A model generated the notes under the pieces. The model searched no databases, was not told the DNA's origin, and saw nothing but the letters and a program-made list of their open reading frames with translations. Shown piece after piece: positions 30,811 through 34,766 of a stretch of DNA of 64,000 bases (the stretch's first letter is position 1; each line of letters opens with the position of its first letter). Both the position numbers and the translations under genes were made by a program. The DNA is taken from NCBI GenBank assembly GCA_944326265.1, contig CALVDE010000002.1, forward strand, positions 186,001 through 250,000. Reading direction: 5' to 3'. The stretch comes from an uncultured Bacteroidales bacterium. GTDB taxonomy: Bacteria; Bacteroidota; Bacteroidia; Bacteroidales; UBA932.

Positions 30811-31224
30811 CTAAAACAAGAGTGCCCTGGAACCGTCAGCATTCTCGGAGATGCACACCTTCAGCGCATCGTCGGGAAGTATCTGCTCTATCTTCTCGGG
30901 CCACTCCATAAAGCACAGCTCTCCACTGTCCATATACTCCTCATAACCGATATCAAGGGCTTCTGATATTTTTTCAATTCTATAAAAATCAAAATGATAC
31001 ACTGGCCGGCCATCTCCTGTAAGGTATTCGTTGACGATGGTGAAAGTAGGACTTGCCACCTCGTCCTCAACTCCAAGAACACGGCAAACGGCTGATATGA
31101 AAGTCGTCTTGCCGGCACCCATCGAGCCGTAAAACGCATATACCGAGACTCCTTCGGTCTGTCTCAGAAACTCCCTGGCAGCTCTGTCCAAGTCTCCTGT
31201 GCCATTTATCACAATCTTACCCAT
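30811..31224 (-). CDS. tsaE: tRNA threonylcarbamoyladenosine biosynthesis ATPase TsaE
   Basis: A 137-residue P-loop protein. Walker A is YGSMGAGKTTF, with ASPTFTIVNEY and HFDFYRIE downstream as in TsaE/YjeE, and the C-terminal LCFMEWPEKIE. It works with TsaB and TsaD to make t6A37 in ANN-decoding tRNAs. Its promoter lies at 31246-31253, immediately beside the left boundary of the AT-rich insert. Confidence 0.95.
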   Translation of the reverse strand: MGKIVINGTGDLDRAAREFLRQTEGVSVYAFYGSMGAGKTTFISAVCRVLGVEDEVASPTFTIVNEYLTGDGRPVYHFDFYRIEKISEALDIGYEEYMDSGELCFMEWPEKIEQILPDDALKVCISENADGSRALLF

Positions 31225-31280: not shown

Positions 31281-31292
31281 AGCTCATTAATT
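31281..31292 (+). repeat. 12-bp direct repeat, copy 1 (left edge of AT-rich insert)
   Basis: AGCTCATTAATT, identical to 33146-33157. It lies just upstream of the tsaE promoter. Confidence 0.75.
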
Positions 31293-31299
31293 ATGCTGT

Positions 31300-32079
31300 T
31301 TATAAAAAACTGCTTTTCAATTGCTCGAGAACCTGTTCTCCGGTAATGTTACGCAAGCCGGCTGATTTGAAAAAATCATGGCCGGGAAGTTCATCCTTTA
31401 CTTCATCACAGAAATGTGACACATCCTTTTTTAATGTCTGCGGCACATTCTCAAACCTGTCGGAAGGCGCGAGCATGGCTGCAAGTCTGAGCACATCTTT
31501 TTTGTGTTTCTGTATATGCCTGCCATCCACTTGGCCGCCTTGTGCCTTTCTCTCTGACATTTCAAGAAATGCCTTGCATTTTAAGCAGATAAGACTCTCT
31601 ATATTTGCAATATGAACCCCGTCTTCAACATGACTGTGTCTTATTGTGAAATTGTAATAGTCGTCATCCATGAGTATAGCCGAAAGACTTGACAGGTCAT
31701 CATCTGTCGGGATGGGGGTTATGCGCGTATCTTCAGGAAAGTCCAACAATCCTATATTACGCGAAAAAAGCTCTATCTGATATGGAAACTCCATATTTGC
31801 CGGTTTCATAAACCGATAATACTCATGCCTGCGCTGATTGCCTTCACTCGTTCCTATATTGCGTTGCCCGTATCCTGCGGCTTTCACCAGCTCCCAAAAC
31901 CGGGCGACAAATTCATGTGAAAGTACTTCAACTATCAGAATGATGTCGATGTCTTTAGTTGCTCTAGGAATCTGTGCATACAACTCCTCGTGAATTTCAC
32001 ATGCAGTACCGCCTATTACGACATAACAATCCTCAAATCCTTCAAAGAACTTCTTGAATTTCTCAATACCTTTTACCAT
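31300..32079 (-). CDS. AbiEii-like nucleotidyltransferase (putative toxin)
   Basis: A 259-residue protein with a nucleotidyltransferase-beta fold signature: VVIGGTACEIH (G23-G24-T25) and RATKDIDIIL with the paired acidic residues D43 and D45. A Lys- and Glu-rich helical region follows (about 170-230). Its start overlaps the end of the upstream winged-helix gene by 7 bp. Order (regulator first, transferase second) and overlap match AbiE-type type IV toxin-antitoxin systems, in which the nucleotidyltransferase is the toxin. The alternative is a DUF6036-like or minimal nucleotidyltransferase of other function. AT-rich codon use marks it as foreign to its surroundings. Confidence 0.6.
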   Translation of the reverse strand: MVKGIEKFKKFFEGFEDCYVVIGGTACEIHEELYAQIPRATKDIDIILIVEVLSHEFVARFWELVKAAGYGQRNIGTSEGNQRRHEYYRFMKPANMEFPYQIELFSRNIGLLDFPEDTRITPIPTDDDLSSLSAILMDDDYYNFTIRHSHVEDGVHIANIESLICLKCKAFLEMSERKAQGGQVDGRHIQKHKKDVLRLAAMLAPSDRFENVPQTLKKDVSHFCDEVKDELPGHDFFKSAGLRNITGEQVLEQLKSSFL

Positions 32080-33044
32080 TTCATGTCGTTTATAAGATTA
32101 TCCAATTCTATTTTAATGCGATCATCTTCGTTGTCTTTTAATGACAAATACAATGACAGCCTGTCAACGGTTCCAGTACGGCTCAATAGTTTCGGGTCAT
32201 ATTTCCATACCTCAATACGGAATGTACCATATTCATTGTCAAAGGGAATATCCGATCGTTGTACATCAGTCTTGCCTACAGCATACATGTCCATATCCTC
32301 CTCATTAATCATTGTATATTCCGACAGAGCATTTATGCCGCATTTAAGACTCTCATCGGGAACAGAGTCGGAAAATAATGTTTTTTCAACCGGAGAGACA
32401 AATAAGGGCGAAGCCTTCTCCCAAAGTTCTTTTCCGCAGTAACTCAATCTTACCTCTTTTGTCTTTCCTCCTTCAAGCGAGATCAGACCGTTTTTGTTCA
32501 ACCAACGTAAAGAACGGTTGACGGTTGCATATGAGACTTGAAAGATTTTCATCAGTTCCTTTGCCCCGCACCCGTCGATGGAAGTCACCTCCAAATGATA
32601 AAGCAGCAAGCATTGCGCTATGGAAGGTATGATTTCCTTTATATCAGACCCTTTGGTTCTTGCTTTTTTAAGGTCAATCAAAAGCGACGGAATGAACATC
32701 TGCTTCTTCGGAATGATAAAATTCAATTTCTGCGCCGTCAATCTACCTATATTGTAGGATGCAATGCTCTCCGCCACAAGTATGACGGGGCTTCCGCATC
32801 TGCTTTCTATCAGATTGAATGTCCGTTTCAACAAAGCCGGGGATATGACATTTCCGTCATTAGTCAAGGCAAATATTACCGTGCAGCCGAATAATACTCC
32901 TTTGTAAAGTTTGAAATTCCGGGCTACTGCAATAGGCATCGTATCCGATAGCCGTTTCTCTAACGGAGAAAGAGAAACCTTTTCATTCAATACAGAGTAA
33001 ATATATGCTGCTGTCTCTTTTATACAATCATTATTTTTGCACAT
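32073..33044 (-). CDS. Winged-helix regulator paired with the nucleotidyltransferase (AbiEi-like role proposed)
   Basis: A 323-residue protein if started at ATG 33044; the frame is open to an ATG at 33131 (352 aa). The N-terminal half (about 1-150) is of no family I recognise. Residues about 155-235 form a winged helix (LMKIFQVSYATVNRSLRWL, KNGLISLEGGKTKEVRLS). The C-terminal part (about 250-323) is acidic and may bind the partner. The start codon lies inside a perfect 27-bp inverted repeat, suggesting autorepression or translational control. The gene overlaps the nucleotidyltransferase gene by 7 bp. A classical MarR-type regulator is the alternative. Confidence 0.6.
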   Translation of the reverse strand: MCKNNDCIKETAAYIYSVLNEKVSLSPLEKRLSDTMPIAVARNFKLYKGVLFGCTVIFALTNDGNVISPALLKRTFNLIESRCGSPVILVAESIASYNIGRLTAQKLNFIIPKKQMFIPSLLIDLKKARTKGSDIKEIIPSIAQCLLLYHLEVTSIDGCGAKELMKIFQVSYATVNRSLRWLNKNGLISLEGGKTKEVRLSYCGKELWEKASPLFVSPVEKTLFSDSVPDESLKCGINALSEYTMINEEDMDMYAVGKTDVQRSDIPFDNEYGTFRIEVWKYDPKLLSRTGTVDRLSLYLSLKDNEDDRIKIELDNLINDMKW

Positions 33045-33085
33045 AATCTCATGGCTTGGATTATGTGCAAAAATAATGATTGTAT
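33022..33085. promoter_or_regulatory. Perfect 27-bp inverted repeat over the regulator start
   Basis: Arms 33022-33048 and 33059-33085 are exact reverse complements; the 10-nt centre is 33049-33058. The ATG at 33044 (minus strand) lies in one arm, so a transcript starting upstream would fold its start codon into a 27-bp stem. Confidence 0.85.
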
Positions 33086-33097
33086 TTTGAAATACAA
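33080..33097. promoter_or_regulatory. Operator-like 8-bp palindrome upstream of the regulator
   Basis: TTGTATTT TG AAATACAA is a perfect inverted repeat with a 2-nt centre, overlapping the outer end of the 27-bp repeat. It is a plausible protein-binding site. Confidence 0.55.
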
Positions 33098-33145
33098 AAG
33101 GATAGACGCTTTTACTACATTGATTTAACATCTACTCTTAATAAC

Positions 33146-33157
33146 AGCTCATTAATT
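33146..33157 (+). repeat. 12-bp direct repeat, copy 2 (right edge of AT-rich insert)
   Basis: AGCTCATTAATT, identical to 31281-31292; includes the yifB stop codon (33152-33154 on the minus strand). Confidence 0.75.
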
Positions 33158-34684
33158 GTCGGGGAAGCGGTACTGGGCGGCTTCCGAAATATGCTCTGAC
33201 TTTATTATTTCGGAGGCCGACATGTCGGCTATGGTACGCGCTACTTTCAGCACCCGGACATAGCCCCTGGCCGAGAGACGGTAACTGTCCATAAGCCTCT
33301 GCAGAAGCCGTGCAGCATCCTCGCCGACCTTACAGAAACGCTGGAGATGAGACGGAAGCATCTGGGCATTGGTGAATATGCCTTCTCCGGCGAATCTCCG
33401 TGTCTGGACAGCCCTGACAGCAGCAACTCTCTCTGCCACCGTCCTGCTGCTTTCCCCAGAAGGAGACATCGACATAGAACGGCTGTCCACTGCCTTGACG
33501 TTGATATTCAAATCTATTCTGTCCATAAGCGGTCCTGACAGCCTGGAACGGTAACGGTGAATCATGGCCGGAGTACAGGTACATCTGCCGTCATCCTCCC
33601 CGGCATAACCGCAGGGACACGGGTTCATCGAGGCCACCAGCATGAACGAAGCCGGAAAATCCACCTTATACCTGGCCCTGGAAACTGTAATATGCCTGTC
33701 CTCCAGCGGCTGACGCAGGACCTCCAATGTAGCGGGCGCAAACTGAGCCACTTCGTCAAGATAAAGTATGCCGTTATGAGCCAGGGAGATCTCACCGGGA
33801 AGAGCCTTGCTGCCGCCGCCTACTACAGCCACCGTACTGGCCGTATGATGCGGGGCCCGGAAAGGCCGGCGGGTAAGCAGCCCCGTACTCTCATCCAGCA
33901 GTCCAGCCACAGAATACACCATGCTGGTCTCGACAGCCTCCCGTAGACTCATAGGAGGCAGAATAGAGGGCATACACTTCGACATCATGCTCTTGCCAGA
34001 GCCCGGCGGCCCGAAGAGCAGCACATTATGGCCTCCGGACGCAGCAATCTCCAGCCCGCGTCTGGCATAATACTGCCCCGCCACATCCGAGAGATCATAA
34101 TCCGGAGACACCGCCTCCGGACAATACCGCCTGCGCGGCACCTCATACTCAGAAGCAGATTCCTGACCGCCCAATACGACCGCCATCTCCTGTAGATCAG
34201 ACACCCCGTAGACCTTTATGTTTTCCGCCCATGAAGCCTCAACGGCAGATTCCCTGGGCAGCACCATGCAGCGGAATCCCATGGCCGCTGCCTTAACAGC
34301 CACCGGCAGTGCTCCGCGTATCTTCCTCAACCGACCGTCAAGAGCCAGCTCACCCATTATCAAGAATTTATCCGGCTCAGGGAAAAACATCTGTCCGGAT
34401 GCGGCCAGCATTGCCACAGCAATAGCCGCATCATAGCCCGAGCCTTCCTTCCTGATATCGGCCGGAGCCATATTGACGACTGTCTTCCGCCCCGGAATCG
34501 TATACCCGTTGCGCTGCATGGCCGTAGTGACCCTCAGCAGCGACTCACGCACCGCATTGTCAGGCAGACCGACTAGAAAGACTCCCACACCCGGGCTGAT
34601 GGATACTTCCACCGTCACCCTTACCACATCCAGGCCCACGCACGTTGCGCTGAATGTCCTGCACAAAGATCCGCTGTCACTCAT
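33152..34684 (-). CDS. YifB/ComM family Mg-chelatase-like AAA ATPase
   Basis: A 510-residue protein from ATG 34684; the longer frame to 34735 includes the promoter and is not used. Domains: N-terminal ChlI-like/Lon-protease-like domain (about 1-180), AAA+ core with Walker A FGPPGSGKSMM and Walker B LYLDEVAQF, a zinc-type segment MNPCPCGYAGEDDGRCTC and the C-terminal helical domain (RLSARGYVRVLKVARTIAD). Homologues (ComM) drive branch migration during natural transformation. comM is a known integration hotspot in other bacteria, and the AT-rich insert abuts its 3' end here. Confidence 0.93.
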   Translation of the reverse strand: MSDSGSLCRTFSATCVGLDVVRVTVEVSISPGVGVFLVGLPDNAVRESLLRVTTAMQRNGYTIPGRKTVVNMAPADIRKEGSGYDAAIAVAMLAASGQMFFPEPDKFLIMGELALDGRLRKIRGALPVAVKAAAMGFRCMVLPRESAVEASWAENIKVYGVSDLQEMAVVLGGQESASEYEVPRRRYCPEAVSPDYDLSDVAGQYYARRGLEIAASGGHNVLLFGPPGSGKSMMSKCMPSILPPMSLREAVETSMVYSVAGLLDESTGLLTRRPFRAPHHTASTVAVVGGGSKALPGEISLAHNGILYLDEVAQFAPATLEVLRQPLEDRHITVSRARYKVDFPASFMLVASMNPCPCGYAGEDDGRCTCTPAMIHRYRSRLSGPLMDRIDLNINVKAVDSRSMSMSPSGESSRTVAERVAAVRAVQTRRFAGEGIFTNAQMLPSHLQRFCKVGEDAARLLQRLMDSYRLSARGYVRVLKVARTIADMSASEIIKSEHISEAAQYRFPDN

Positions 34685-34704
34685 ATCTCCAATTTTTACC
34701 GGAG

Positions 34705-34712
34705 CAAAATTA
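34705..34712 (-). promoter_or_regulatory. -7 box of yifB
   Basis: Minus-strand TAATTTTG, perfect TAnnTTTG, 20 nt before the start codon. Confidence 0.55.
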
Positions 34713-34729
34713 ACTGACAGGAGACATCT

Positions 34730-34766
34730 CCGCAACTGCCGGACAGAAGTTTGTTGACAGTTGCGG
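34730..34766. repeat. Inverted repeat between waaA and yifB
   Basis: 9-bp arms CCGCAACTG (34730-34738) and CAGTTGCGG (34758-34766) with a 19-nt loop. On the plus strand it is followed by CTGTTTT; on the minus strand no T tract follows, so it is not a typical terminator for waaA. Confidence 0.5.

Follow-up and report, generated by a model that had tools for sequence, protein, structure and literature searches.

A two-gene module in the genome of an uncultured Bacteroidales bacterium is, with a probability that we put at roughly 0.8, a divergent member of the AbiE toxin–antitoxin lineage, acquired by horizontal transfer. It was analyzed within a 64,000-nucleotide stretch of one contig, the whole of which is referred to as the window; the source genome measures 2.36 Mb in 24 contigs. 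The reading rests on homology to AbiE-type pairs, near-obligate pairing of the two genes, an operator-like repeat, mostly one-sided decay of the nucleotidyltransferase (NTase) gene, and mobility. The module and its surroundings contain the following features.

33152–34735, minus strand: ComM-like flanking housekeeping gene, outside the module (ORF list, neighbour comparison)
33146–33157, no strand: first copy of a 12-bp direct repeat (AGCTCATTAATT), comM end of the module, overlapping the stop codon of comM (repeat search)
33068–33098, minus strand: Bacteroidetes-type promoter, TTTG (33098–33095), 19-nt spacer, TATTTTTG (33075–33068) (read by eye)
33059–33085, no strand: inverted repeat arm (putative operator), covering the -7 box (perfect 27-nt repeat)
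33022–33048, no strand: other arm of the inverted repeat, covering the start codon (33044) and first codons of the regulator (perfect 27-nt repeat)
32073–33044, minus strand: regulator CDS, putative antitoxin, 323 aa, ATG at 33044 (ORF list, profile matches, predicted model)
31300–32079, minus strand: NTase CDS, putative toxin, 259 aa (ORF list, motifs, predicted model)
31281–31292, no strand: second copy of the 12-bp direct repeat (AGCTCATTAATT), tsaE end of the module (repeat search)
30811–31224, minus strand: TsaE-like flanking housekeeping gene, outside the module (ORF list, neighbour comparison)

The regulator gene precedes the NTase gene on the minus strand with a 7-bp overlap. A first-pass annotation made from the letters alone had described such a pair, a 323-aa winged-helix regulator and an NTase overlapping by 7 bp, and both ORFs were recovered where it had placed them, together with the GGTA and KDIDI motifs it had read in the NTase. 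An overlap of exactly 7 bp recurs in 75 of 97 related regulator–NTase pairs, and the gene pair is therefore beyond chance. The mechanically called regulator ORF is longer (352 aa from ATG 33131); ATG 33044 was taken as the start because a stretch between the two ATGs resembles, by eye, a promoter. The module had also been called AT-rich, and its G+C content is indeed 41.4% (0.404 for the regulator gene and 0.424 for the NTase gene) against 55.1% for the window, whose lowest-G+C 1745-nt stretch, scanned in 100-nt steps, starts at about 31400, over the module. Judged by sequence likeness, the flanking genes are presumably comM upstream and tsaE and then nadB downstream.

The Pfam search and the predicted model (mean pLDDT 93.2, pTM 0.63; confident within domains) divide the regulator into an N-terminal α/β domain (residues 1 to ∼130), a winged helix (∼140–200) and a C-terminal domain (∼215–323), the last of which is acidic as first described, with 13 K+R against 23 D+E in residues 216–323. 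The HMM search proposed in the first-pass annotation gave no match of the window regulator to AbiEi_2 (PF09952) at E ≤ 10; nine weak Pfam matches were obtained, to assorted winged helices and none to a HEPN family. PF09952 was matched by none of 17 diverse regulators at E ≤ 1 and was absent from the 25 shown of 92 families listed for 83 regulators, which are mostly winged helices with MarR_2 first (42). Foldseek searches of the model against PDB and BFVD returned mostly winged-helix matches and no fold identity for the N-terminal domain; an NCBIfam search yielded nothing informative, and PADLOC gave weak matches only for the gene pair.

Profile–profile comparison reached further. When the 83 regulators were compared by hhalign with an alignment of 21 proteins around Pfam AbiEi_2 from Bacteroidota genomes, a match of 97.8% (E = 1e-12, the E-value of this one pairwise comparison) was obtained over 300 columns, covering window residues 7–312 and taking in both the N- and C-terminal domains. 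By its sequence profile, the regulator thus belongs to the AbiEi_2 architecture as a distant member: the alignment runs nearly end to end, through an N-terminal domain, a central winged helix and a C-terminal domain in the same order. The same match rules out the N-terminal domain as a wholly new antitoxin type; the earlier suggestion of an N-terminus of no recognised family, and perhaps of a new kind of antitoxin or a defence sensor, is thus half right at best, and a role as defence sensor is speculative. The window-type regulators nonetheless differ from AbiEi_2 proteins in having no PF09952 match and no EVK-like consensus, present in A6, in the N-terminal domain.

The NTase is likewise a distant AbiEii relative. 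The same HMM check matched the window NTase weakly to AbiEii (PF08843; E = 0.0042, 17.5 bits, below the Pfam gathering cut-off of 22.5) and to DUF6036 (E = 0.051). Among 83 aligned NTases, AbiEii was matched by 40 at E ≤ 1 (best 7.5e-5) and DUF6036 by 21; one relative on a plasmid already bears the annotation AbiEii/AbiGii family. Comparison by hhalign with 12 partner NTases of AbiEi_2 proteins gave 94.9% over 159 columns (E = 4.8e-8, again for a single pairwise comparison). The AbiEi_2/AbiEii pairs used here, which probably represent the COG4861–COG4849 branch, also have the regulator upstream of the NTase in overlapping or adjacent genes.

The window NTase contains GG-x-A, RxTxDxD, E103, K167 and K191-H192-x-x-D195. 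Twelve positions (G23, G24, A26, R39, T41, D43, D45, E103, K167, A170, K191 and D195) are invariant in 83/83 NTases, and H192 (81/83) and R177 (70/83) are less strict. According to the accessible part of PMC3985639, AbiEii motifs I and II read hG[G/S] ... DxD with an Arg in motif II, motif III comprises a Lys and an Arg, and motif IV is [+]DxxD. Motifs I and II as defined there are present throughout (G23, G24, R39, D43, D45); at motif III, K167 is found in 83/83 and R177 in 70/83 NTases. Motif IV departs from AbiEii, being [+]HxxD in the window-type NTases. The predicted NTase model (pLDDT 88.2, pTM 0.88) retrieved viral poly(A) polymerases at Foldseek ranks 1–4, MenT3 (8xhr) at rank 5 and TglT at rank 7, the MenT3 and TglT matches being weak (E ∼0.02); a PDB sequence search with the NTase found no MenT entry.

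To judge how regularly the two genes travel together, genome contigs were scanned with an NTase profile, which gave at least 523 confirmed relatives, of which the best 80 were kept; the same scan of viral contigs gave 19 loci, and a single-protein scan of viral contigs nothing useful. The regulator lies directly upstream in 79/80 of these best genome loci and 18/19 viral loci, 97/99 in sum, and the two misses (L100 and L114) both begin at a contig end. The conserved-neighbour survey called for in the first-pass annotation thus finds the link conserved. Pairwise identities of regulators and NTases are correlated (r = 0.80; reached in 0/2000 Mantel permutations), a correlation that common ancestry could produce by itself. 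One viral-contig locus tested (L117) contains phage tail genes.

In single-sequence searches of 72,556 plasmid records, 35 contained the regulator and 49 the NTase; 3 of 50,697 phage records contained the regulator. Seven plasmid loci whose regulator match was missing, weak or located elsewhere were checked. In four of them (Latilactobacillus, Edwardsiella L302, Collinsella and Sulfurospirillum) the profile located a regulator upstream. On the Novosphingobium resinovorum plasmids pSA2 and pHR1a (L300 and L301, 2447–3202), an open 251-aa NTase gene with its motifs present has no upstream regulator: pSA2 retains a remnant only, the regulator's last ∼25 residues, and pHR1a has transposase genes upstream of the NTase and a regulator match elsewhere. 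In L305, a plasmid record of Edwardsiella, a split regulator adjoins an NTase that runs to the record end. The N. resinovorum plasmids and L305 count against a strict toxin–antitoxin polarity, though pHR1a has its regulator match elsewhere. The unaccompanied N. resinovorum NTase would also suit a different arrangement, an inducible catabolic or resistance operon made of an ordinary transcription factor and an NTase that is not toxic and modifies, for example, a small molecule or antibiotic; the winged helix resembles the MarR type, and some plasmid homologues of the regulator are annotated as MarR family regulators.

The pattern of gene loss bears on this alternative. Both profiles were searched in the same 393 Bacteroidales genomes, where 28 regulator places were found. 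Downstream of the 25 with room (L217, L221 and L228 are at contig ends) lie 18 full NTases, one loop-deleted NTase (L211) and six that are broken or absent. At the family level, 22 rows reduce to 17 evaluable places once three at contig ends (L007, L009 and L021), one with a regulator that has itself decayed and with no NTase (L022) and the entry for the window (L002) are set aside; 11 have a full NTase and six a broken one. At the phylum level, five full-length places besides the window were used, other matches being partial to the profile, and three have a full and two a broken NTase. Over all 47 evaluable loci, 32 NTases are full, one is loop-deleted and 14 are broken or lost. This count scores L023 as broken, though its contig ends 438 nt past the break, and includes regulators with one flagged stop in L209 and L213 (order level) and L133 (phylum level), which yet have open frames of 320–332 aa.

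The NTase of genome G167 carries both an internal deletion and a frameshift next to an intact regulator, and in Yoonia (L025) an IS481 transposase gene separates two NTase pieces. L211 was rejected as a dead toxin and counted apart, since it has lost a 27-aa loop in frame but kept its catalytic residues. L223 (735–2454) has a regulator followed directly by a phosphoesterase without an NTase match, the NTase having been lost and the other two kept. In the reverse test, 18 of 19 full-length Bacteroidales NTases could be judged, and a full regulator accompanies 18/18. Apart from the Novosphingobium exception, such traces are for the most part those expected of a toxin guarded by its partner. A conventional catabolic or resistance operon is improbable in view of the 14/47 loci that kept the regulator while the NTase broke or vanished, the intact regulator beside every evaluable intact NTase, and the homology of both genes to AbiEi_2/AbiEii pairs.

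The roles could also be reversed, with the NTase as an antitoxin-like modifier and the other protein as the toxin, as in HEPN/MNT systems; in HepT/MntA an NTase-fold protein does serve as the antitoxin, as described in the accessible part of PMC7641770. Here the protein conserved beside the NTase has a winged helix and no HEPN match, and it is usually the NTase gene that is lost, which makes such a reversal very improbable.

A further line of evidence for the toxin–antitoxin reading lies at the regulator start, where a perfect 27-nt inverted repeat with a 10-nt loop spans the promoter and the start codon. This repeat was not part of the first-pass annotation. The promoter read at 33068–33098 follows the Bacteroidetes consensus; a sigma-70 scan gave matches no more frequent than in shuffles. 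As single-stranded DNA the repeat folds 12 standard deviations below shuffles, and it doubles as a terminator-like stem on the plus strand. A genome-wide search with the 17-nt half-site found exact copies in the two arms alone and two more sites that differ by two mismatches; a wide operator regulon, as searched, was rejected on this ground. The best inverted repeat beats all 60 shuffles at 38/92 regulator starts of distinct relatives against 7/175 other gene starts of the same loci (Fisher p = 4e-14, computed over loci that are related and so not independent), duplicate sequences and regulators ≤160 nt from a contig end having been left out. In L090, upstream of 7015, nested half-sites AATAAAGT and ACTTTATT each occur twice, which suggests two dimers per operator.

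The type IV toxin–antitoxin pair AbiEi/AbiEii of Streptococcus agalactiae (COG5340–COG2253) shares the two-gene order and NTase motifs I–II with the window pair, and its promoter also carries inverted repeats, to which AbiEi binds for autorepression (PMC3985639, accessible part). By this analogy, the repeat in the window fits AbiE-style autorepression as a putative operator. The two regulators differ in layout: the winged helix of AbiEi (COG5340) is N-terminal, whereas that of the window regulator follows an α/β domain of ∼130 residues and occupies ∼140–200.

The location of the module points to mobility. Among 19 genomes of the genus surveyed for the comM–tsaE slot, six carry the module directly after comM; tsaE lies on the other side in G000, G131, G075, G167 and G087, and in G197 the module is cut by a contig end. 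In 11/19 genomes comM and tsaE are direct neighbours, including G185 (ComM 89% identical, 65-bp gap), and in 2/19 another ORF, of 180 aa, lies between them. This ORF (L201, 3057–3596, and its equivalent in L202) may mark the slot as an insertion hot spot; the L201 copy, the one tested, has no Pfam match. Among named records, the comM/tsaE neighbours are shared by relatives in a Bacteroidales MAG (L032) and in Candidatus Coprenecus (L038). The 12-bp direct repeat that flanks the window module is imperfect in other carriers. The window TsaE (30811–31224) is 94% identical to that of carriers L006 and L038 and 76–77% to that of L003, L004, L005 and L032, and the adjacent NadB is 95–99% identical throughout; the TsaE contrast possibly reflects recombination at the module edge.

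Many relatives have a third gene. A calcineurin-like metallophosphoesterase, in two sequence clusters, is present in 51/102 relative loci and adjacent to the pair on the same strand in 48/102; duplicates L037, L103 and L115 and loci without a regulator are left out of these neighbour counts. Pfam Metallophos was assigned to 6/6 phosphoesterases tested, and the DxH, GD, GNHE and GHxH residues, which we take to be metal-binding, are invariant in 34 aligned sequences. The gene was found in 0/10 random 18-kb stretches and in no ORF of the window and, a difference from AbiEi_2 loci, within 1.5 kb in 0/23 of the latter (two of them fragments). Among the nearest relatives it lies downstream in L033, L036 and L039 and is missing from the window, L038 and L035. 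One phosphoesterase query, run without a positive control, matched 0/19 genomes of the genus, and the profile had no match in G000. The phosphoesterase partner belongs to the relatives and not to the window copy.

On a quickly built NTase tree with 26 open forks, phosphoesterase presence changes at least 16 times. The phosphoesterase profile matches 47/277 Bacteroidales genomes, and 8 of 30 phosphoesterase loci examined lie beside a regulator–NTase pair of the window's kind. A phosphoesterase of the same family adjoins another HTH–NTase pair in L286 (2262–3477) and is fused to the NTase of that other kind of pair in L293 (303–2277). Both NTases match the PADLOC candidate PDC-M21B; the PDC-M21 system (HTH + NTase) thus shares the phosphoesterase family, beside or fused to the pair, and differs in its NTase and regulator families. 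L008 was rejected as a functional NTase–phosphoesterase fusion: by eye, an NTase without its C-terminus joins a phosphoesterase without its N-terminal half, a deletion product.

The 48 adjacent same-strand genes, the two clusters occupying the same position, the distribution among the nearest relatives and the fused and adjoining copies in L293 and L286 all speak for a three-gene defence system, with the NTase as writer and the metallophosphoesterase as eraser, of which the window copy would be a form reduced by loss of the eraser. With no phosphoesterase next door in more than half of the relatives and only 8/30 of the examined phosphoesterase loci adjoining the pair, we regard this as less likely than not.

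Type I restriction genes were found in 18/102 relative loci (up to 8 kb a side), with Pfam support for three representatives; the same 12 queries found none in 10 random stretches or the window. In L052, L054, L063, L065 and L093 the regulator and NTase lie between HsdM/HsdS and HsdR. The tRNA-cutting PrrC likewise sits inside type I restriction operons. A fuller proposal, that the window pair is a reduced three-gene AbiE-like system whose phosphoesterase erases a tRNA nucleotide or the T41 phosphate, and that in some hosts it sits within type I restriction operons and fires when restriction is disabled, appears slightly less probable than the writer–eraser system by itself. The literature search, with most subscription papers and all bioRxiv preprints outside its scope, returned papers on AbiE and MenT and, in the text accessible, none on this branch or on an NTase–phosphoesterase module.

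The AbiE-like character first proposed from the sequence alone is upheld by the weak AbiEii matches, the NTase motifs, the near-obligate order, the operator-like repeat and NTase decay beside intact regulators. Besides the plasmid exceptions, points against the toxin–antitoxin reading are the sub-threshold AbiEii score of the window NTase, its deviating motif IV, the weakness of the Foldseek matches to MenT and the fact that no more than 38/92 relatives passed the inverted-repeat test. As an AbiE-lineage toxin–antitoxin module, the pair would work as follows. The regulator would be antitoxin and autorepressor; its winged helix would bind the long palindrome that spans the regulator promoter and start codon, and operon expression would stay low. 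It would also neutralise the NTase, most likely via its C-terminal domain, whether by binding the enzyme directly or by causing it to autophosphorylate at T41. The latter route is suggested by MenAT of Mycobacterium tuberculosis, which has a Thr/Ser phosphoacceptor in the active-site loop (MenT1 T39 and MenT3 S78; accessible part of PMC11375011); T41 corresponds to these residues by motif, not by computed alignment. MenAT also shares the NTase fold, by the weak Foldseek match, and differs in that the MenA antitoxins belong to three other families (PMC11375011, accessible part). Once the antitoxin is lost or titrated, the NTase would, by homology, add nucleoside monophosphates to RNA, most likely to tRNA 3′ ends as for MenT toxins, and translation would stop. 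Such a module would likely serve abortive infection and its own persistence on mobile DNA. The metallophosphoesterase, present in about half of the relatives examined and not in the window, may reverse the NTase modification or act on the NTase.

The window pair thus belongs to a large AbiE-type branch of at least 523 confirmed relatives, whose window members fall below the AbiEii cut-off and score weakly in PADLOC. Because the putative phosphoacceptor threonine is invariant in 83/83 NTases, the branch offers a test set for how NTase toxins are neutralised, and its recurrent phosphoesterase leads to the prediction that certain NTase toxins are accompanied by an enzyme able to reverse the harm they do.
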